Shown here: positions 2,857 through 12,741 of the stretch, piece after piece | Position numbering within the stretch: position 1 is the first letter of the stretch | Layout of the letters: every line of letters begins with the position of its first letter | Assembly: GCA_017302835.1 (NCBI GenBank) | Contig: JAFLCC010000004.1 | Location: 186,001-250,000, forward strand | Direction of reading: 5' to 3' | DNA length: 64,000 nt | Source of the DNA: Deltaproteobacteria bacterium | GTDB taxonomy: Bacteria; Bdellovibrionota; Bdellovibrionia; Bdellovibrionales; Bdellovibrionaceae | Position numbers and translations under genes: made by a program | The notes under the pieces: generated by a model | Database searches by the model: none | Seen by the model: the letters and a program-made list of their open reading frames with translations, nothing else | Told to the model about the DNA's origin: nothing

Positions 2857-4317
2857 TTATGCTAATGGAGGCATTGGCGGAGTTTCGCTCAAAATTCCTG
2901 AATTTAAAATTCTTTCAAGGGAACTACTTTTTGATTGCAAAAGATTTTCGCTCTTTCTGATTAATAGTGCTAGGTGATCTCGCTGCTCTATGAGCATGCC
3001 AATTGAAGTCTCTAATGATTTTCTGTTTCCTGAAAGAGTCGGAGTGATCTTAAGTTCCCATTCGAGCCTAGAGATTTCCTTTTCTGTAACTGAAAGGTAA
3101 TCATTTAAGGGATGCAAGGTAATGGCTTGCTGGATTTCTCTAGCTAACTGGGACACAATCTTTTGGTATTTCGATTTTTCTTGATTTTGAGATAAGACAA
3201 ATTGAGAAAACTGTTTTTCTCTTTGATTTAACTGTGCAGCAATGAGTGAGTGAGCACCCTTTTCTTTAGAAAGAAGCTCCGTTTGTTCTTTTAATTTGAG
3301 TTCTAAAGTGTGTTTTTCCTCAGACATGTGCTGCAAAGTGCCGGATAAACTGTTTTGATAGTCAATCAAATCCGAATTCTTTTCCTTTAGCTTGGATATT
3401 TCGCATTCAAATTGGCTAGCAACATTTTCGAAATATTTTTTTGATTTTTCAAACTGATCTTGATTTTCCTTTGCAGAGGCTTTAACCGCATCCTTCTCAC
3501 TCAGCAAAGAACTGATTTCACCCAGCAATGAGTTAATTTCAGTTTCATAGTATTGCTTTTCCATAATCCAGGTTTCTTTTGAAGTGCCATTCTCCAATTC
3601 CAATTTACTGACTTCATTTTTAAGAGCCAAAATATTTTCCTCTAAGGAAGCATTTATGCTCTCATGTCTTAAGTACTGTTCCTGTTTTTCATTTTCCATT
3701 GTCTTTAAAAGAGAAAGATTTTTGTCTAGCTCTGAATTGGCCTCGTCAAGAGTTTTACTCAGGTTTTGTTTCTCAGCTTTTAACTCAATTAAGTGAGCAG
3801 TATTTTGAGCTAACTCATGCTTGGTTTTTTCATTTAGTTCCATGGACAATTTAAGTTTAGAATTCAAATTATCCACTTCCGAAATCAAATTCGAGACTTT
3901 AGCACTATTTTCCTCTTTTTCAGTCCTAATTCTTTGAATTTCTTCACCTAAATTATTCTTTATTCTCTGAATTTCGTCACTAGAATTCATCTTTGCAGTT
4001 GTTATTTCACTATTTAAGGTATCAATTTTCGATTGTAATTCATGCACTTCTCGACTTGATCTTTGATATTCACTATCAATTCGAAGGCACTCATTCATTA
4101 CAGAGTTAAATTTATTTATTGTTGATTCCACTAATTCTTTATTAAATTGATTCTGCTCATTCTTTTTTGTTAGGATTTTATTGTCATTCTTTATCGAATC
4201 AATCTTTAGCTGTAATCGGCATATCTCTTCTTCAAGACCTTCAATATGGGAAAATACTTTTTCTATGGAACTTTCCTTGAATTTTTTTGGCGCCGAATTT
4301 GAATTTAGAATCTCCAT
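2857..4317 (-). CDS. Long coiled-coil protein, function unknown
   Basis: A 486-residue protein that is almost entirely heptad-like coiled coil from about residue 15 to 400, rich in Glu, Lys, Leu, Ser and Asn, with a short Pro-containing tail (ETPPMPPLA). There is no signal peptide or membrane segment, so a cytoplasmic location is likely. The start at 4317 is chosen over an in-frame start 45 bases upstream because AAGGAGG sits seven bases before this ATG. It lies opposite to the LysM-to-MotB run that begins at 4510 and may share its regulatory region. A scaffold or tether role for that envelope machine is possible but unproven. No family is recognised beyond coiled coil. Confidence 0.75.
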   Translation of the reverse strand: MEILNSNSAPKKFKESSIEKVFSHIEGLEEEICRLQLKIDSIKNDNKILTKKNEQNQFNKELVESTINKFNSVMNECLRIDSEYQRSSREVHELQSKIDTLNSEITTAKMNSSDEIQRIKNNLGEEIQRIRTEKEENSAKVSNLISEVDNLNSKLKLSMELNEKTKHELAQNTAHLIELKAEKQNLSKTLDEANSELDKNLSLLKTMENEKQEQYLRHESINASLEENILALKNEVSKLELENGTSKETWIMEKQYYETEINSLLGEISSLLSEKDAVKASAKENQDQFEKSKKYFENVASQFECEISKLKEKNSDLIDYQNSLSGTLQHMSEEKHTLELKLKEQTELLSKEKGAHSLIAAQLNQREKQFSQFVLSQNQEKSKYQKIVSQLAREIQQAITLHPLNDYLSVTEKEISRLEWELKITPTLSGNRKSLETSIGMLIEQRDHLALLIRKSENLLQSKSSSLERILNSGILSETPPMPPLA

Positions 4318-4509
4318 TACGAATCCTCCTTGAGAGTCATATTGAGACATGTCGGCCAACAAAATCCAAACTTGAGACAGTTTTTTGAAAATATTCTAAA
4401 ATTAAGACATTCTGCTAGAAATGATCCAGTCTCGTTCAGAATCACAAGACCAATCCGACTTAAGAATAAGATTCTTGATAGCAATGATTTATAAGACTTG
4501 GAGTCAATA

Positions 4510-5268
4510 ATGATTCATGAATTTAAAGCCAAATTAATAGTAGAATTGATTGTATTTTCAGTTCTATTGGTTTTAACTGGATGTAGTTTTTTTTCCTCTA
4601 AACCCATATCCAACCAGAATCAGTCGGCATTCCGCGCGACAGCTGCGCCAGTTGCTAATCCAATTCCAGTTCCCATTGAAGTTGCCACAGAAATATCAGA
4701 AATTATGCAGGGGAAAACAAAAAATGAAACTGGAAACAGAGAAACCAAGCAATTGATTGAAACTGAAAGATTAAGTGGTTCAGATTTCAAAAAAAAGCAG
4801 CAGGATGCTTCCAATAAAAAAGATCGAAAACCCTCGAATTCAAAAACTGAAAGATACGAAGTGAAACAAGGTGATACTTTGATGAAGATTGCTTTTGAAA
4901 AATATGCCAACATTTATCGATGGCGTGAAATCTATCAGACAAATAAGGGAAAAATTAAGGACTTCAATAGACTCGAATCTGGAACAGTACTGCTAATCGA
5001 AGGGGTTGAATACGTGTATATCGAAAAAAATGGAGAGGCCTATTTTATTATTAAAGATGATAGTTTGGTTAAAATTTCCAAAAAACTCTATGGCACGACA
5101 TCAAACTGGAAAGTTCTTTGGAAAAACAACCCTCAACTCATCACTGATCCGAATAAAATCTATGCTGGGTTTACCCTCTACTACCCCAAAATGAATAATC
5201 AGCCAGCGGATAACATCAGAACTCCGGCAAGTAGAAATACAAAGACACTTAGAATCAATAATAAATAA
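4510..5268 (+). CDS. LysM-repeat lipoprotein
   Basis: A 252-residue protein with a lipoprotein signal: hydrophobic residues 9-23 followed by the lipobox LTGC at about residue 25. A Ser/Lys/Glu-rich linker runs to about residue 110. Two LysM-like domains follow, at about 116-164 (YEVKQGDTLMKIA) and 177-227 (YFIIKDDSLVKIS). LysM domains bind peptidoglycan, so the protein probably tethers a lipid-anchored end to the cell wall. The ATG at 4510 is preferred to a TTG at 4498 because GGAG lies six bases before it. It starts the co-directional run that leads to the FliF-FliG-like protein and MotAB. A role as a wall anchor for that complex is inferred from position only. Confidence 0.8.
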   Translation: MIHEFKAKLIVELIVFSVLLVLTGCSFFSSKPISNQNQSAFRATAAPVANPIPVPIEVATEISEIMQGKTKNETGNRETKQLIETERLSGSDFKKKQQDASNKKDRKPSNSKTERYEVKQGDTLMKIAFEKYANIYRWREIYQTNKGKIKDFNRLESGTVLLIEGVEYVYIEKNGEAYFIIKDDSLVKISKKLYGTTSNWKVLWKNNPQLITDPNKIYAGFTLYYPKMNNQPADNIRTPASRNTKTLRINNK

Positions 5269-5340
5269 AATATAAGCAAGATTTCTCACAACGGATAAGA
5301 AATATTTGATTTTATTATTAGTTAACGAGATTATGAAAGT

Positions 5341-6411
5341 ATGATATTTTTTAGATTCATCTGTTTATTCCTTTTGATATTTGTACTAGAGGGCGTTTCT
5401 GCCCAGGAAAAAAATGAAGTTCAAAAACCTTTGCAAGAGTCTGTAAAAAGTCCAACTATCGATAATTCAAGTACCTGGGTGGCCCATCTCATTAGAGATA
5501 AGAATGTGAACCAAAGAATTTCTGACCTGCTGATAAAAGAAGGCACCATTCCCGTCACCATGATTTTTAAAGATCAAAAATTTAGACCCTTGGTTCAAAT
5601 TCCAATTGAGTTTGCTCGTCCTGGTTGGTCTGTATTTATCCAAGAGAAATTTCTTGCTCCAATTTCAGATCAACCTGGTTCATACAAATTGTTTGCCTAT
5701 CTTAATGATCGAGTCAACGAAGTCGAGATCGTTGTAAGAGGTCCGAAAAAAGAAATTGAAAGGGAGCGAGTTTATATCGTGTCTCCTGATGCACAGGAGT
5801 ATAAAATAGTAAGTCCTTGGGATGCCTTAAGGCTAGGATTAGGAAGTGCCTTAATCAGTTACAAGCAGACTGGTTATAACAGCTATCAAGCTTGGACTGG
5901 AGTTTTGGCCGTTCAGTTCCACAGTCCTGAGGAAAAATCTAAATTTGGATTAATTTCCGACTTATCTATGACTGCATTAACAGTGTCTTCCAGCAATGGC
6001 TTAAGTCCTCAATTATTACAATTTAACGGGGATATTATCTATTTTTTTCATTGGTCCCCAAACTCTCGATGGAGGAAACAAGCCTTAGTCGGTTTAGACT
6101 ACTTTACGATGCTTTCAAACGGCGCGCCGTTTGGATTTAAGGATTTAGTCACTCCTGAAGTTGGAGGAAGAGCCAGGTATATCGTAAATGAAAAAGAAGA
6201 TATAATCTTCGAGCTTCGATATTCTCCCTTAAGTGGAATCAGCAATTTTAAGGAACGTGGATATATCGTTTCCTACTCAAGAAGTTGGTTGCTACCAAAC
6301 CTTCATAGAGTTGAGGCTGGAATCAGACTCTTAGATTTCACCTATCAGTCAAACCCTAACATAACTGCCTCCGCCCAGACCTTATCATTGTTGCTTTCCT
6401 ACTCCCTATAG
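5341..6411 (+). CDS. Secreted protein with probable outer-membrane barrel domain
   Basis: A 356-residue protein with a clear signal peptide (residues 1-22, cleavage near VSA-QE). Residues 40-130 look like a soluble beta-rich domain. From about 160 to the end, alternating hydrophobic and polar strands with many aromatic residues, ending in LLLSYSL, suggest a small outer-membrane beta-barrel. No named family is recognised. It lies between the LysM lipoprotein (72 bases upstream) and the PEGA/TPR lipoprotein, all on the same strand, which suggests a joint envelope structure. An outer-membrane ring or anchor for the neighbouring motor-like proteins is a hypothesis. Confidence 0.65.
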   Translation: MIFFRFICLFLLIFVLEGVSAQEKNEVQKPLQESVKSPTIDNSSTWVAHLIRDKNVNQRISDLLIKEGTIPVTMIFKDQKFRPLVQIPIEFARPGWSVFIQEKFLAPISDQPGSYKLFAYLNDRVNEVEIVVRGPKKEIERERVYIVSPDAQEYKIVSPWDALRLGLGSALISYKQTGYNSYQAWTGVLAVQFHSPEEKSKFGLISDLSMTALTVSSSNGLSPQLLQFNGDIIYFFHWSPNSRWRKQALVGLDYFTMLSNGAPFGFKDLVTPEVGGRARYIVNEKEDIIFELRYSPLSGISNFKERGYIVSYSRSWLLPNLHRVEAGIRLLDFTYQSNPNITASAQTLSLLLSYSL

Positions 6412-6502
6412 AATCGATGTCTTGCTGCGGTGGCATCTCTTGACGTTTTTCCAGTTTCCACAGAAATGTTTAGCGCAGGACTTTTAATAACGAAGATTTT
6501 GA

Positions 6503-7171
6503 TTGAATCTAAAAAGGATGGCAAAGAATCCTTGGTTTGACTTATCTATTATTTTTCTCTGCATTTTGAATTATATTTTCTTGTGCGGTTGTTCAACACC
6601 TAGTTTTGTGGTTAAAAGCGATCCTCTTCAAGCTGACGTTTTTGTTCAAGATCCTAAATCAAGCGACAAAAAACCGATAGGCAAAACACCGCTACAACTA
6701 CCTCTGACTGAGGTGAGAAAAACACTTGGAAACTCTGTAGGTCCGGGTGAGTTTTTTAATGTTATTATTGAAAAACAAGGTTTTTTACCTCAGACCTATG
6801 CCGTCCCGGCTACAAAATTTGGGACCATGATAGTTCAATATGATATCAAACTAAAACCAGGAAATGCGCCAAAGGAAGTTAGAATAGCTAAAGAAATTTT
6901 GGATCATATTTTTGTGGCGCAAAAACTGGCATTGTTGCAGCAGTTCGAAAGGGCGCAAATTGAACTTGATAAAGTAATCATTCCGTTCCCAAATTTTGCG
7001 CGCGCACTTTCAATGAGAGCTTCCATCTATTTTGCTCAGAAAAATTATGTTGAGAGTTTGAAATGGTACGAAGAAGCAATTAAAAATGATCCGGAACTTG
7101 ATGATGCTATAAAGATGATTGCTAAAATTAAAACTCTAAATGGTTCCAATGCAAAGGGATCCAACTTATGA
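6503..7171 (+). CDS. PEGA/TPR-domain lipoprotein
   Basis: A 222-residue protein with a hydrophobic segment ending in the lipobox LCGC at about residue 30. Residues 35-110 have the PEGA pattern, a surface-layer-like beta domain starting SFVVKSDPLQADVFV and continuing through PIGKTPLQLP. Residues 135-215 form helical TPR-like repeats (FARALSMRASIYFAQKNY, then SLKWYEEAIKNDPELDDA). PEGA and TPR domains are typical of envelope assembly proteins. The start is uncertain: TTG at 6503 has GAAGA upstream, whereas ATG at 6518 has its AAGG directly adjacent. The stop overlaps the start of the FliF-FliG-like gene by four bases (ATGA), so the two are probably translationally coupled. Confidence 0.7.
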   Translation: MNLKRMAKNPWFDLSIIFLCILNYIFLCGCSTPSFVVKSDPLQADVFVQDPKSSDKKPIGKTPLQLPLTEVRKTLGNSVGPGEFFNVIIEKQGFLPQTYAVPATKFGTMIVQYDIKLKPGNAPKEVRIAKEILDHIFVAQKLALLQQFERAQIELDKVIIPFPNFARALSMRASIYFAQKNYVESLKWYEEAIKNDPELDDAIKMIAKIKTLNGSNAKGSNL

Positions 7172-8979
7172 AATTTAACAAGCATTTCATTTATTCATCA
7201 TTGATTTTGCCTCTCTTCTTTTTATGTAGACTTTCTTTGGCTGCAGATGATTCAACCCCTGATGAAATTGGGGCCAAAGCCCTTTTAGAAGAAATTTTGA
7301 TCAAAAGATATTCCCAGGGTTTGGCAACTCTTGTTGAAAAAAATTCCTTCAACGTTGGTGCACAAGTTCAATTAGTAAATGCCCCAAGTCCTCCGTCCGA
7401 AGAACCTCCCAAAAAAGCAGAGGTTGAAATACCTCAAGATTTATTAGTTGGTGTTTTAGATCCTGAGCAATTAATCAAGCAATCTGGCGTGGGCGAAGAA
7501 AAAAAAGCCATCGTCAGTTTGTTAACAACAAAAAGAATTAAGTCAGCATCTATTTCTGTTGGCCTGAGAGAGGATCTTGGCGCTGATGTAAAAAAAGATG
7601 TTGAAAGTTGGTTAGCCCTGCGGGTAAAAACCGAGTTTGGAAAAGCTGGAAAAAGCTCAGTGAGTTTTGTGAAATCAATTCAAGAAAAAAAGGTTGAGTC
7701 TCCGCCAAAGCAATGGTGGGATTGGGCGAATCAGTTTCAACACCTGATTGGGACAGCACTCCTAGCTTTAACTTTTCTAGTTGGGATTTTGTTTTGGCGG
7801 TTAACAACCTCGAAATCCTCAGTAAGTAAACAAAACCAAGGAGATTCTCCTTCTATTAAATTAACCTCCGAAGGTGCTATTGGAGAAAATAAAGATAATT
7901 CAAATAGAGTCACCGAAAAAGAAAGTGAAATCTCTGATGAAAAAATGAAGCTAATAAACAGTAAAGAGCTAGAATCGATAAATTCAAAAATAATTGGATT
8001 AGTTCCAAAGCTTTCCAAAGATTTTGAGTCTATCATAAGGTCTTGGTGCCAATCAGGTGAAGAGGGTTTATTCAAACTTGTATGCTTTTCAGAGGCCGTT
8101 GGAAAAGACATCGGAAGGCTTCCCATTCCTATTGATGCAATGAGTGATGTTGCCAATGTTTTTACCAGGATGTCTAAAATATCAACCAAAGAAAAAATCG
8201 AAACTTTGGAAAAATTATATTGGGATTTAGTTAGTGTTTTAAATTTAGGACCAGAAGTATTAAGTCAGCCCTTCGGATATTTATCAAGTGTCGATGCCGG
8301 AGTTATTAATCAACTTCTTATGGACCAAAATCCCAAAATGAAAACATTAGTATCGCTTTATTTGCCAGAAGAAGTTAGAAGAAGTTTTATTAAACCATTG
8401 TCTGAAGAAGAAAAACTAAAGATTTTGGAAAGTGCTGCTAATTTAACTGAAATCCCGAAATCTGAACTAAAAGGCATGGATACTACGATTATGGGTAAGA
8501 TGAAATCCGATGATACCAAGGATTCCATTCAATTTAAAATGAATATTGAAAAAATAGTATCTATGCTCACCGAAAAGGAACAGATCACATTGTTAGGTCA
8601 GATTAAAGGAAATAGTTTAATTGAATATAGAAAAAACAATCCCAGTTTGGCTTTCATCCATCTTTGGCCGGACCAGGAAATTTCAAAACTACTTGGCAAA
8701 GCCAATTCCGACGAGGCTTTAAGCTACATTCGTGTTAAACCTGAAAGTAAGGAGCGAATTATCACTTTATCTCCCCCGTTTTTATCTGAAATGATCATTG
8801 ATGAAGTGGATAAGCCAACGAAATCAACTTCAGAAGAAATGGATGGCCACTTACGATCGCTATTAACTAAATTAAAGGAACTTGTCGAAAGTAAAGAAAT
8901 AAACTTAAAAGAGATTTTTGAACAAATAGACTCTGAGAAGCCCGGGGAAAATAATGTTATTCCAATTAAAACGGCCTAA
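7168..8979 (+). CDS. FliF-FliG-like fusion: membrane ring segment joined to rotor switch protein
   Basis: A 603-residue protein with a signal peptide (1-25). Residues 38-75 resemble the part of FliF that begins the third ring-building motif (LLEEILIKRYSQGLATLVEK, then VGAQVQL). Residues 120-170 resemble its partner strand (RIKSASISVGL through SSVSFVKSI). A membrane helix lies at 186-211, preceded by WWDWA as in FliF. The cytoplasmic half follows FliG: an N-domain-like region at about 270-365, a middle domain at 370-445 (INQLLMDQNPKMKTLVSLYL) and a C-domain at 455-585 (AFIHLWPDQEISKLLGK). In flagella FliF and FliG are separate: FliF makes the MS ring, and FliG takes torque from MotAB. Here they appear fused, without the FliF N-terminal domains. 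MotA and MotB follow within 700 bases, so a rotor role is a strong inference. The assignment rests on pattern matching by eye. Confidence 0.6.
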   Translation: MKFNKHFIYSSLILPLFFLCRLSLAADDSTPDEIGAKALLEEILIKRYSQGLATLVEKNSFNVGAQVQLVNAPSPPSEEPPKKAEVEIPQDLLVGVLDPEQLIKQSGVGEEKKAIVSLLTTKRIKSASISVGLREDLGADVKKDVESWLALRVKTEFGKAGKSSVSFVKSIQEKKVESPPKQWWDWANQFQHLIGTALLALTFLVGILFWRLTTSKSSVSKQNQGDSPSIKLTSEGAIGENKDNSNRVTEKESEISDEKMKLINSKELESINSKIIGLVPKLSKDFESIIRSWCQSGEEGLFKLVCFSEAVGKDIGRLPIPIDAMSDVANVFTRMSKISTKEKIETLEKLYWDLVSVLNLGPEVLSQPFGYLSSVDAGVINQLLMDQNPKMKTLVSLYLPEEVRRSFIKPLSEEEKLKILESAANLTEIPKSELKGMDTTIMGKMKSDDTKDSIQFKMNIEKIVSMLTEKEQITLLGQIKGNSLIEYRKNNPSLAFIHLWPDQEISKLLGKANSDEALSYIRVKPESKERIITLSPPFLSEMIIDEVDKPTKSTSEEMDGHLRSLLTKLKELVESKEINLKEIFEQIDSEKPGENNVIPIKTA

Positions 8980-9580
8980 AGTAGAGCTTGTTTTCTTTGT
9001 TGCCCTTTTTACCACTATTTTTTCTCAAGCTGATTATAGGGTTGGAGGATTGCTCGGCTTGGGGAGCACAGGAATTTCCAGCGTTGAAACTATTAGTGGC
9101 ATTGAATTGAAAGTAAATCGAAGTGATGGACCAGGATATTTTGGTCTTTTTGTTGAAAAACTCATTTCTGATACGAACAGCCTGACTCTTGGACACAATC
9201 GCGGTTTTTTGTTTTCACCATTTTCATCTGGGATTGGGTTTACCGGCATCACTTACCGCTGGTTCTTTGGCGGTCCGGCGCCATCAATGGTTGAATCCGC
9301 ATCTGAACAATCCACAATGCTAATCAAAAGGTATGCTTTCTTCCTTGGCTTAGAAGGTGGAATTGCCAATGGAACAGTAGTTCGTTCCAACGACTTAGTG
9401 CCCGTAGTAAGTGGATCAGGTGCTTTTATGGGATTTCATGCGGGATGGGACATTCAAACTGAACCCAACTATGTTTATAGATATGAGTTTGTATATGGTT
9501 TGACTCCTCCTTCTTCAGGTTTTGTTAAGACAGATCTCAGTGAACTTGCCTTTACGGCGGGAATATATTTCATATATTGA
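8954..9580 (+). CDS. Small secreted protein, probable outer-membrane barrel
   Basis: A 208-residue protein with a signal peptide (about 1-26, FFVALFTTIFSQA). The rest is Gly- and aromatic-rich with alternating strand patterns (GIGFTGITYRWFFGG; YVYRYEFVYGL) and ends in FTAGIYFIY, an aromatic C-terminus typical of outer-membrane barrels. The start lies 26 bases inside the 3' end of the FliF-FliG-like gene, so the two are probably co-transcribed and coupled. No named family is recognised. Its position between rotor-like and stator genes suggests an outer-membrane part of the same machine, but this is guilt by association. Confidence 0.65.
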   Translation: MLFQLKRPKVELVFFVALFTTIFSQADYRVGGLLGLGSTGISSVETISGIELKVNRSDGPGYFGLFVEKLISDTNSLTLGHNRGFLFSPFSSGIGFTGITYRWFFGGPAPSMVESASEQSTMLIKRYAFFLGLEGGIANGTVVRSNDLVPVVSGSGAFMGFHAGWDIQTEPNYVYRYEFVYGLTPPSSGFVKTDLSELAFTAGIYFIY

Positions 9581-9679
9581 CTTCAGAATCGACCTCCTTA
9601 AGTCTAAATTTTCCTGTTTTTTATGAGTCTCATTGTTAGTGGAGCAAAAAAAAAATAAAATGAGATCTCCGAGGTCTAA

Positions 9680-10468
9680 ATGAACTTTTCTTCTTTATCA
9701 GGTCTTATAGCTGCCTTAGCTATTTTAATATTTGGAATTTTCGGCTCAGGCGCCTCACCAAAAGTATTTTTAGATGTGCATGGAATTCTTATTGTTTTCG
9801 GAGGTACTGCAGCCGCTGCTCTCATGTGTTTTCCCTTGCCGTTCTATGTACAGGTAGCAAAGGTTTTTGCCGCGAAATTTTTAGGGAAATACCGAGTCCG
9901 AAGAGAAATGGTGATCACTGAGCTGGTCGATCTGGCAAAGGGAGTAAGAGACACTCCTGATTATCTAAAAACAAAAGTGAAAACCATTAAAACACCTTTT
10001 CTTTCTGATGCCTTGGAATTAATAAATCAGGGTGGGATGTCTGAAAAAGAAATAGATGGCATCCTCTTAAAGAGGGCTTCAACGCTTTCAAAACGCTATG
10101 ATCAAGATGCCGGTGTGTTTAAAACCGTAGCTAAATTTCCTCCAGCATTTGGACTCATGGGAACCACTCTGGGAATGATTACATTGCTACAGTCACTTGG
10201 TGGAAAAGATGCACAAAAATTGTTGGGTCCAGCGATGGCTGTAGGACTCGTAGCCACGTTCTATGGTTTAACACTAGCCAATCTGGTTTTGATCCCTATT
10301 GCCGAAAACCTTTCCGCCTTAAATCGTGATGATGAAAACTTAAGGATTATTGTTATCGAGGGATTAAGACTAGTCAGACAAAAGCAACACCCTAAATATG
10401 TTGAGGAGTATTTAAAAAGCCACTTGCTGCCTTCTGAACGAGCTAGCTTCAAAAAAGGTTTGAAATGA
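9680..10468 (+). CDS. motA: MotA/TolQ-type stator protein MotA
   Basis: A 262-residue inner-membrane protein of normal MotA length. Four membrane segments lie at about 5-25, 33-54, 148-172 and 182-206, with a large cytoplasmic loop at 60-145. The third and fourth carry the family signatures FPPAFGLMGTTLGM and GPAMAVGLVATFYGLTLAN, which line the ion path. MotA forms the ring around MotB and pushes on FliG when ions flow. GAGG lies five bases before the ATG. The gene overlaps motB by four bases (ATGA). It lies 99 bases after a barrel-like gene that overlaps the FliF-FliG-like fusion, so the partner rotor may be that fusion and not a standard flagellar FliG. Confidence 0.9.
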   Translation: MNFSSLSGLIAALAILIFGIFGSGASPKVFLDVHGILIVFGGTAAAALMCFPLPFYVQVAKVFAAKFLGKYRVRREMVITELVDLAKGVRDTPDYLKTKVKTIKTPFLSDALELINQGGMSEKEIDGILLKRASTLSKRYDQDAGVFKTVAKFPPAFGLMGTTLGMITLLQSLGGKDAQKLLGPAMAVGLVATFYGLTLANLVLIPIAENLSALNRDDENLRIIVIEGLRLVRQKQHPKYVEEYLKSHLLPSERASFKKGLK

Positions 10469-11187
10469 AACATGAGGAAAGCGAGTCATCAGAAGTCGAT
10501 ATCACTGATCTCTCTTCCGATCATGGTCATGGTGGCGGAGGTGACCACGATGAAAGCAATTGGTTAATTTCCTATGCTGATTTAATGACTCTTTTGGTCG
10601 GTTTCTTCGTTATTCTATTAAGCTTTTCAAAAGTAGATCAAGATGAGTTTGAAAAAGCAAAGCAATCACTATCAAAACAGTTTGGAGGAAATTATCAAAA
10701 ACCATTTGCAGATATTGCTGATAAGATAAAAAATGCTATTGATAAAATAAATGCTGGAAATCAAGTCGAAATAAAAACAAATGAAACGGGAGTGAACATT
10801 TCCTTTATTGGTACTGTTTTCTTTAGCTCAGGGTCTGTAGATTTTAAAAATGAAGCAAAAAACATCTTAAATCAAATTCTACCAATTATAAAGCAAGAAG
10901 CTTCGGATTTTGGAATTGTCATCGAGGGACATACTGATGATGTTCCTCTGTCAGCTGGAGGAACATATAAAAACAATTGGGAACTTTCAAGCATCAGAGC
11001 CTGTAGGGTTTTGGAATATATGATAACTTTCGGGTTTTCTTCAGAAAATGTTGTTGCCGTCGGATACGGTGAAGCAAGACCTGTTGTGCCTAACAGAGAC
11101 GAAAATGGCATTCCAAATCCTATCAACCAAAGTCAAAATAGAAGAGTCATAATTAAGTTAATCAAAAATGGAGCTCAGACTATCTAA
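10465..11187 (+). CDS. motB: Stator protein MotB with OmpA-like peptidoglycan-binding domain
   Basis: A 240-residue protein. The N-terminus is acidic and His/Gly-rich (DHGHGGGGDHD). One membrane helix at about 33-55 carries the ion-binding aspartate, Asp39, in SYADLMTLL. A plug-like amphipathic stretch follows (KVDQDEFEKAKQSL). Residues 110-236 form an OmpA/MotB domain with the peptidoglycan-binding region IEGHTDDVPL, then WELSSIRACRVLEYM and NRRVIIKL. MotB anchors the stator to the cell wall and conducts ions. The helix resembles PomB-type, sodium-using sequences (ADLMTLL, FFVILLSFS), which is only a hint about the ion. It forms a coupled pair with motA. Confidence 0.92.
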   Translation: MKHEESESSEVDITDLSSDHGHGGGGDHDESNWLISYADLMTLLVGFFVILLSFSKVDQDEFEKAKQSLSKQFGGNYQKPFADIADKIKNAIDKINAGNQVEIKTNETGVNISFIGTVFFSSGSVDFKNEAKNILNQILPIIKQEASDFGIVIEGHTDDVPLSAGGTYKNNWELSSIRACRVLEYMITFGFSSENVVAVGYGEARPVVPNRDENGIPNPINQSQNRRVIIKLIKNGAQTI

Positions 11188-11240
11188 AGATAAAGTCTAG
11201 TTGGCCTTTTATTAAAAATCAAAATCTAATAGAATGAATA

Positions 11241-11285
11241 AACGGATTTAAAGTGAACGGATTTAAAGCAGATGGATTTAGATTT
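11241..11285 (+). repeat. Three 15-base tandem units across a start codon
   Basis: Two near-perfect 15-base units (AACGGATTTAAAGTG and AACGGATTTAAAGCA) are followed by a diverged third (GATGGATTTAGATTT) that contains the ATG of the next gene at 11272. Slippage at this repeat could change the leader or the start of that gene. No clear Shine-Dalgarno sequence is visible here. Confidence 0.6.
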
Positions 11286-12741
11286 AAGCAATAAAAGCCA
11301 TTCAAAAAAGTGGTATGTAAGTACTAATCAAGGCTGCTTGGGCCCCCTTTCCACTATTCAATTACTTAATATGGGAAAGAAAAATGAAATTAATTCGCAA
11401 AATTTCGTTTGGCATGAAGGCTGGAATGATTGGAAGGCAATATCACAAGTTTATGACCTAGAGCTTCTTTATGCAAATAATGACTCTATTGAATTGGAAT
11501 CGAAGGTAGGTTTAAAGGTAGATTCAAAATTAGGTTCAAAGGCAAAGTCAGAAGCAGAATTGGAAAATAAAGATTCATGGAATAGTAGCGACGAATTTTG
11601 GAAAGAAATCCATCAAGAGATTATAAATTTTTCGCCCGATGAATACACAAGGGTCGAAACAATATCAAAAGACAAGAATCAGTGTTCTTTAAACCTAGAA
11701 GTCCAGCCCGCCAAGAATATAAATCAGTTCAAAACAAACAAGATCATTCTGTTTTTGGTTTTGGCTTTATTGGCATGCTTCTTCATCATATTGAAGTTTA
11801 CAAGAGGAAATAGTTATAAAAAAAGTAGCTATAGAGAATATTTGGAAAAGTCATTGACTAGGAATGAATACCGAGAATTGATTTCAGCCATTGATGAATC
11901 ATTAGAAAAATCAGGTCCTGCGGCCAGTATCGGAATTATAAACAATAATGAGAGATCAAAAGGTCTGCAAATTTATTTTGCCGTAGGTACGAATTTACAA
12001 GATGGAACAGAGCTAAAATTGAACGTATGGAGTACGCCTGGAACACTTTTATCTTTAAACAACGTTTCTGTTGAATCAAAACTCTTTGTTAAAGACGGTA
12101 TCGCATTCTCCCCTGCTATGTATGGAAAAGAAGGAGGTCCTTTGGCTGAAGGCGAATATCAAGTCATGGTTAGATGTCAGAAATGCAAAAACATGCCTCT
12201 TGAAGAAAATAATTTAATAAAAAACCAGAATGAAAGAGAAATCACCTTAGCACATAAGGCCTATTTTATTGGTGGAAAGAAAGACAGCAATTACTTAGAA
12301 GAATTAAAAGTGATTCAAGATCAAATTAACCAAAAAAGCAAAGGGGAACTGATTGAAGCGGCTCAATTAATTGGTATAATTCGAAAACAATTTAATGAAT
12401 TGAGGGTAAACCAAATTCAACTCACTCAGGGGAAAAATAATAGGAATCGGAAGGAAAATCAAAACACCTATTCCAATTGGAATGAGTCTGATTGGATTCA
12501 AATCGACGAACAGTTATTTGTATTAATCGATAGATGGAAATCACTAACCCTCCATAATGAAGTCGTTCATAAAGAACTATTTGGTGAAATAGATAGAGCC
12601 TACTTAAAACTAAAAGAAATTTATGAAATTCAAACTAAATTCTCATTCCAGCAAAAAGAAGCTAAAATTCAATACGAAAAAATTGATTCGCTTTTTATTC
12701 AAACTGAGAAAGAGATTTCATCCATAGAAAAGAAGTTATAG
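11272..12741 (+). CDS. GYF_2-domain single-pass membrane protein
   Basis: A 489-residue protein. Residues 10-65 match the bacterial GYF_2 pattern (KKWYVSTNQGCLGPLSTIQL, then VWHEGWNDWKAI), a small module that usually binds proline-rich or partner peptides on the cytoplasmic side. A charged, repetitive linker follows (KVGLKVDSKLGSKAKSE). One membrane helix lies at about 157-176 (IILFLVLALLACFFIILKF). The C-terminal 300 residues, probably periplasmic, contain a beta-rich part and a long helical region from about 340. The specific function is unknown. It is the last gene of the same-strand run that includes MotAB, 84 bases after motB, and could be an accessory of that machine. A separate transcript is also possible. 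Confidence 0.65.
   Translation: MDLDLSNKSHSKKWYVSTNQGCLGPLSTIQLLNMGKKNEINSQNFVWHEGWNDWKAISQVYDLELLYANNDSIELESKVGLKVDSKLGSKAKSEAELENKDSWNSSDEFWKEIHQEIINFSPDEYTRVETISKDKNQCSLNLEVQPAKNINQFKTNKIILFLVLALLACFFIILKFTRGNSYKKSSYREYLEKSLTRNEYRELISAIDESLEKSGPAASIGIINNNERSKGLQIYFAVGTNLQDGTELKLNVWSTPGTLLSLNNVSVESKLFVKDGIAFSPAMYGKEGGPLAEGEYQVMVRCQKCKNMPLEENNLIKNQNEREITLAHKAYFIGGKKDSNYLEELKVIQDQINQKSKGELIEAAQLIGIIRKQFNELRVNQIQLTQGKNNRNRKENQNTYSNWNESDWIQIDEQLFVLIDRWKSLTLHNEVVHKELFGEIDRAYLKLKEIYEIQTKFSFQQKEAKIQYEKIDSLFIQTEKEISSIEKKL

Follow-up and report, generated by a model that had tools for sequence, protein, structure and literature searches.

A FliF–FliG fusion encoded beside its own MotAB pair: a candidate flagellum-independent rotary motor in Bdellovibrionota

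Can the torque-generating core of the flagellar motor serve a cell outside the flagellum? To our knowledge, FliG has been described in no role other than that of flagellar rotor, and the question is raised by a gene cluster in a 64,000-nucleotide stretch of DNA (hereafter the window; contig JAFLCC010000004.1 of assembly GCA_017302835.1, positions 186,001 to 250,000, or G000:C4:186001-250000) from the 3.6-Mb genome of a member of the Bdellovibrionaceae. A sequence-only reading of this window had described a protein with a signal peptide that joins the C-terminal part of FliF to the three domains of FliG, encoded upstream of motA and motB and among genes for LysM, PEGA/TPR and barrel-like proteins, and had proposed that the cluster specifies a self-contained motor lacking the rod, hook, FliM and FliN. 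Every gene of the locus was found at the coordinates given there. The analysis reported here indicates that the locus probably encodes a self-contained rotor-stator, driven by ions and descended from the core of the flagellar motor.

The FliG and FliF halves of the fusion

The gene at 7168–8979 (+ strand, as for all genes of the window below unless stated otherwise) encodes a 603-residue protein, the proposed rotor subunit, in which a signal peptide, a FliF-type ring domain (ring-building motif 3, RBM3), a membrane helix and three FliG domains follow one another head to tail. Compared as a single sequence, it gave weak matches in Pfam (FliG_C, E=0.0017; FliG_M, 0.11) and none in NCBIfam, and its sole match among PDB sequences was full-length FliG (3hjl, E=0.005). 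FliG_C was matched by 12 of 13 fusion relatives (best 1.6e-13), and a profile of the fusion family recovered solved FliG from the PDB at 1.3e-25 over the M and C domains, with FliG-type chains as the only matches down to an E-value of approximately 1e-3. Using 55 fusion homologues, hhalign paired residues 280–597 with FliG 1–344 at 98.8%, and the FliG N, M and C domains at residues 297–580 (8056–8907) with FliG 13–334 at 97.8%, such comparisons being one-on-one, with E-values that apply to a single test. An AlphaFold2 (AF2) model built from nine sequences (mean pLDDT 70.8) resembled FliG M/C with Z-scores of 12–13, its C domain matching MotAB-bound FliG (8ucs) with a Z-score of 11.8 and a root-mean-square deviation (rmsd) of 2.2 over 87 residues. 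The fusion is thus homologous to FliG across the N, M and C domains, the N domain being assigned chiefly from the profile alignment.

It is very improbable that the FliG half is in truth a generic armadillo or MgtE_N-like helical domain whose repeats resemble FliG by chance. The weakness of the single-sequence matches and the scoring of MgtE_N in 7 of 13 relatives would suit such an explanation, but nothing else matched the profile with the strength of FliG, the match is colinear over the whole of FliG, and the other half of the protein has a FliF RBM3 fold, in the right order and with MotAB adjoining. Both identities, MgtE_N and armadillo, were rejected on the strength of the profile match.

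In that other half, the AF2 model places an alpha-beta-beta-alpha-beta succession, the RBM order, at residues 31–168 and a single membrane helix at residues 183–214 (7714–7809), which hhalign aligns with the TM2 region of FliF. Residues 28–171 (7249–7680), an RBM3 lacking the beta-collar, compare with FliF RBM3 at a Z-score of 10.5 and an rmsd of 3.0 over 99 residues. With the 55 homologues, residues 1–299 were paired with FliF 183–549 at 92.7% (global) and 78.9% (local); an earlier comparison with 3–10 sequences per group had given FliF probabilities of 0.2–25%. The sequence match alone is therefore moderate and it is the fold that carries the FliF assignment; the protein has the succession of RBM3, TM2 and cytoplasmic tail that characterises FliF. 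An injectisome inner ring was considered as the identity of the RBM and rejected, FliF being the better fit (Z 10.5 against 7.4). Both halves described in the sequence-only reading, as well as the predicted fold of a ring motif plus FliG helices, are thus borne out.

TM1, RBM1, RBM2 and the beta-collar of FliF are absent from the fusion and the mature protein starts at RBM3, FliF 229–438 pairing with just 99 fusion residues owing to the missing collar insert. In established flagellar structures, it is by these four elements that export gate and rod are held, and the fusion would accordingly be a ring protein without the part that holds them. The FliM-binding motif EHPQ, invariant in 12 flagellar FliGs, keeps its His in 1 of 55 fusions and its Gln in 2 of 55, a loss which fits a rotor without FliM and FliN. 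The head-to-tail fusion itself is easily pictured, since flagellar fliF and fliG of the same genome overlap by four bases (L042).

A dedicated stator and a patchy distribution

The start of motA falls 701 bases past the end of the fusion gene, and the interval contains one small outer-membrane barrel gene. The product of 9680–10468 is a MotA stator subunit (Pfam MotA_ExbB, 4.6e-19) belonging to a clade that accompanies the fusion, and that of 10465–11187 a MotB (MotB_plug, 1.9e-17; OmpA, 2.6e-16) with a proton-channel helix bearing Asp39 and an OmpA-type peptidoglycan-binding domain. The family match to MotA/TolQ/ExbB, the channel Asp (kept in 52 of 52 locus MotBs) and the peptidoglycan-binding domain identify a true MotAB pair, which is of the PomA/MotA type.

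The MotAs encoded at fusion loci group in a single clade, separate from MotA1 and MotA3 of G060, a genome which we take to be, very probably, that of Bdellovibrio bacteriovorus HD100. With membership of this clade defined by the window MotA as query at E<=1e-55, and four genomes with a partial fusion scored as carriers, the clade occurs in 40 of the 42 fusion genomes of the class versus 3 of 102 genomes without a fusion. The two fusion genomes without a clade match carry a divergent type (G048) or are fragmented (G089), and the three exceptional genomes (G062, G040, G113) contain a divergent fusion gene beside that very MotAB. Shared ancestry inflates this count; the same split is nevertheless seen inside the Bdellovibrio-like genus g6, in which the clade is present in 11 of 11 fusion genomes versus 1 of 13 others.

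When 369 genomes of the phylum were surveyed with a profile, full-length fusions (~570–700 amino acids (aa)) turned up in 53 genomes, or 56 when fragments are included. More divergent relatives of matching layout exist besides these fusions. Within the class the fusion is found patchily in several families, being present in 11 of the 24 g6 genomes and absent from the other 13, while none was found in family f12 (~130 genomes); no relative was found in a plasmid collection. A peptide-pattern scan of the genome collection returned 9 loci, far below the profile survey. Among 57 fusion loci read, a PEGA lipoprotein was encoded within ~8 kb in 52 and both MotA and MotB in 38, several loci without MotAB in the fetched stretch being cut by contig ends. 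The PEGA/TPR lipoprotein is the most constant partner of the fusion, and the fusion–motAB neighbourhood anticipated by the sequence-only reading is conserved. Pairwise distances of the fusion, MotA and the PEGA lipoprotein correlate across 34 loci (r 0.91–0.93), although common descent alone can yield such a correlation.

The window's own genome contains a second, divergent locus (L244, G000:C13:14000-30000, at 5229–9667) in the order giant lipoprotein, PEGA, MotA, MotB, a 571-aa fusion relative ending in KAA and a 183-aa small secreted protein, with giant lipoproteins on its flanks. An open reading frame at 3462–5741 of L198 (G342:C199), with similar frames of 726–823 aa in G343, G308 and G325, matches the fusion profile in part; such relatives of 720–820 aa, adjoined by MotAB in L198, are possibly a further type. 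A 281-aa FliG_C-like protein at 8663–9508 of L041 (G000:C18:46839-47147) adjoins Ppx/GppA-like, PhoU-like and response-regulator-like genes, and FliG_C proteins of 230–290 aa resembling it occur in most relatives. As to C-termini, Ala-Ala closes 27 of 55 fusions, and the last two residues are both small in 45 of 55; KAA or AA endings are also seen in many MotAs of these loci (L027 to L198) and in HD100 MotA3, but not in flagellar FliG, FliF and MotB. By analogy, these ends resemble the ClpXP-type C-terminal degradation tag and could point to regulated turnover.

Rotation, envelope tether or flagellar accessory

In the machine that we infer, the periplasmic RBM3 domains would assemble into a ring as in the FliF S-ring, each fusion subunit would cross the membrane once, and the FliG parts would form a ring in the cytoplasm. 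MotA5–MotB2 units of the dedicated clade, anchored to the wall through MotB, would drive the FliG_C ring round by rolling along it. From the RBM3 ring, torque would be handed on to components of the outer envelope: the PEGA/TPR and LysM lipoproteins, the small barrel and a giant FN3 lipoprotein. The likeliest use would be the moving of a surface lipoprotein, in slow surface motility or adhesion, which is a guess.

Some observations weigh against this arrangement. The published flagellar charge pairs (PMC7564593) are MotA Arg90 with FliG Asp289 and MotA Glu98 with FliG Arg281. An acidic residue occupies the position equivalent to Asp289 in 52 of 55 fusions (that of Asp288 in 32 of 55) and a basic residue stands next to the Arg90 position in 45 of 51 MotAs; the Arg281 and Lys264 positions, by contrast, are basic in only 32 and 29 of 55 fusions, and the MotA column equivalent to Glu98 is not acidic. 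One charge pair could thus persist while the other has changed. In G047, G053, G108 and G127, fusion and stator genes are not neighbours. Lastly, all three motAB pairs of HD100 reportedly (Morehouse 2011, by its title, as cited in PMC11323537) contribute to motility by a single flagellum, which for that strain weighs most heavily against a purely non-flagellar role.

The partial retention of torque residues would suit a static or pulling machine, with the fusion as an immobile scaffold of the envelope or a force sensor and MotAB acting by pulling or gating without rotation, as in Tol/Ton. PEGA, TPR, LysM and OmpA-type parts are what envelope links typically contain, and a HAMP–SpoIIE phosphatase sensor stands beside several loci. 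Such a machine is nonetheless distinctly improbable: a full FliG with a C domain like the MotAB-bound form, together with a full MotA and MotB with the channel Asp and plug region, exceeds the needs of a tether, and the nearly constant acidic residue at the Asp289 position likewise weighs against it.

The HD100 pairs bear on another explanation, namely that the clade MotAB powers the ordinary flagellum, with the fusion acting as a FliG mimic in the membrane by which these stators are stored, anchored or braked. The three MotA genes of G060 stand at the places expected from the locus numbers Bd0144/5, Bd3020/1 and Bd3253/4, and its fusion (G060:C1:2913438-2915150, minus strand) adjoins the middle one; HD100 therefore very probably has a fusion copy beside motAB2, so that the question can be put to a laboratory strain now. 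Almost all fusion genomes are, moreover, flagellate. Against this explanation stand the clade of its own that the locus MotA forms, the outer-membrane and FN3 lipoproteins as constant partners and, as the strongest evidence, two genomes, G127 (99% complete) and G125 (97%), in which the fusion and the MotA-clade stator are present without a flagellum. No flagellar FliG was detected in either by a FliG-containing profile, and FlhA and FliF_C, found in the controls G000 and G060, were absent from both; with several contigs in each of these two genomes, assembly gaps are a residual risk to that absence. A purely flagellar role is consequently unlikely and a role confined to flagella was set aside on the absence of FlhA and FliF, the accessory explanation as a whole being judged unlikely. 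The proposal of a rotor-stator that stands by itself fared well in this respect. None of the export gate, rod, hook, FliM and FliN was found among the genes of the locus, and the flagellar genes of the window's genome lie on a separate contig (L042).

Envelope partners and known systems

The run of genes on one strand from 4498 to 12741 comprises those for a LysM lipoprotein, a beta-rich secreted protein, the PEGA/TPR lipoprotein, the fusion, the small barrel, MotA, MotB and a GYF protein, and the gene ends overlap at PEGA/fusion, fusion/barrel and motA/motB, as in an operon. The LysM lipoprotein (4498–5268; Pfam LysM, 9.5e-7) is the probable peptidoglycan-binding part, with relatives in 10 loci, each time alongside MotAB or the fusion gene set. 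The 356-aa secreted beta-rich protein (5341–6411), a possible outer-membrane barrel, had no Pfam match and has relatives in 7 loci. The PEGA/TPR outer-envelope lipoprotein (6503–7171) was recognised by its TPR (8.8e-8) and an invariant lipobox Cys, PEGA itself being scored in two of its relatives (best 8.3e-7). A small outer-membrane beta-barrel of OmpA/NspA/Ail type is predicted at 8954–9580 (AF2 pTM 0.74, with a signal helix and barrel strands; Foldseek to OmpA, 2.3e-7), and its relatives occur in 31 loci. The GYF-domain protein with a membrane helix (11272–12741; GYF_2, 1.2e-11) has relatives in 13 loci.

Upstream, a 501-aa coiled-coil protein (2857–4362, − strand) shows Pfam matches of coiled-coil type only and no visible signal peptide, and has relatives of 299–1350 aa in 11 loci. 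The 877-aa FN3 open reading frame at 199–2832 is the tail of an intact secreted lipoprotein of 2337 aa (G000:C4:181819-188832; window positions −4181 to 2832, of which 1–2832 are visible) that starts 4.2 kb outside the window, and the locus is thus larger than the window displays. A candidate surface or adhesin load, this protein is 46% identical over its length to a 2321-aa protein adjoining another fusion, and has relatives in 17 of the loci scanned. The FN3 giant and the coiled coil recur in loci resembling that of the window, as do the LysM lipoprotein, GYF protein and barrel, and the suggested link to LysM, PEGA/TPR and barrel-like proteins holds in other genomes, where these and the GYF neighbours are found together.

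A HAMP membrane sensor with a SpoIIE-type phosphatase domain, which may regulate the system, adjoins the fusion in L159 (5673–7424), L030 (13283–14776) and L034 (12035–13744). Upstream of one locus type lie a von Willebrand A-domain protein (L035, 5831–7192) and its 359-aa secreted partner, also seen in L036, L037 and L034.

Among known systems, the flagellar motor is the evident homologue, sharing FliF RBM3 and TM2, the FliG N, M and C domains, a MotA5B2-type stator and the FliF-then-FliG order of the flagellar operon. Here, however, FliF and FliG are one protein without RBM1/2, TM1, the collar and the FliM-binding motif, in a locus that lacks the export gate, rod, hook, FliM and FliN, is linked to outer-membrane lipoproteins and occurs in flagellum-less genomes. 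The injectisome inner ring (PrgK/YscJ, MxiJ) shares the ring-building motif fold in a periplasmic ring, whereas the locus has no secretin, export gate or ATPase and has FliG paired with MotAB. AglRQS–Glt of Myxococcus resembles it as an ion-driven MotA/TolQ-type motor with outer-envelope lipoproteins, TPR and barrel proteins, and a GYF domain as in GltJ; yet AglRQS has no FliG or FliF part, while the locus has true MotAB and a FliG-type partner. GYF domains are common, and the locus does not contain the GltG/GltJ/AglRQS set, its NCBIfam GltJ match being to the GYF domain only, at 23 bits against a cut-off of 450. GldLM of the type IX system of Bacteroidota is similar in being an ion-driven motor of the inner membrane, with outer-membrane lipoprotein-bound adhesins as its proposed cargo, but has no FliG-type rotor and lies outside the MotAB sequence family (PMC13104615, PMC9389320). 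No description of a FliF–FliG fusion with MotAB outside flagella was found in the literature searched, which is weak evidence as most subscription papers fall outside it.

For surface movement, a motor anchored to the wall and linked with LysM, PEGA/TPR and FN3 surface lipoproteins is a sensible candidate, although any particular cellular role is held with far lower confidence than the rotor-stator itself, and gliding, prey entry and envelope remodelling are guesses. The absence of the fusion from 13 of the 24 g6 genomes argues against a role needed by every Bdellovibrio; a gene so patchily distributed cannot encode the only gliding motor, and an accessory function has to be envisaged. We would suggest, tentatively, that Bdellovibrionota possess a complete FliG-based rotary motor that is independent of the flagellum and drives outer-membrane surface lipoproteins, and that it could be a missing surface-movement motor of these predators. 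According to a 2026 review, the machinery with which Bdellovibrio glides has yet to be identified, and it is a major challenge to find the motor, the adhesins and the means by which force is transmitted (PMC13104615); the locus offers a concrete candidate for the motor. If the reading is true, a natural FliF–FliG fusion with its own MotAB that survives the loss of the flagellum would mean that the core of the flagellar motor is a portable module.

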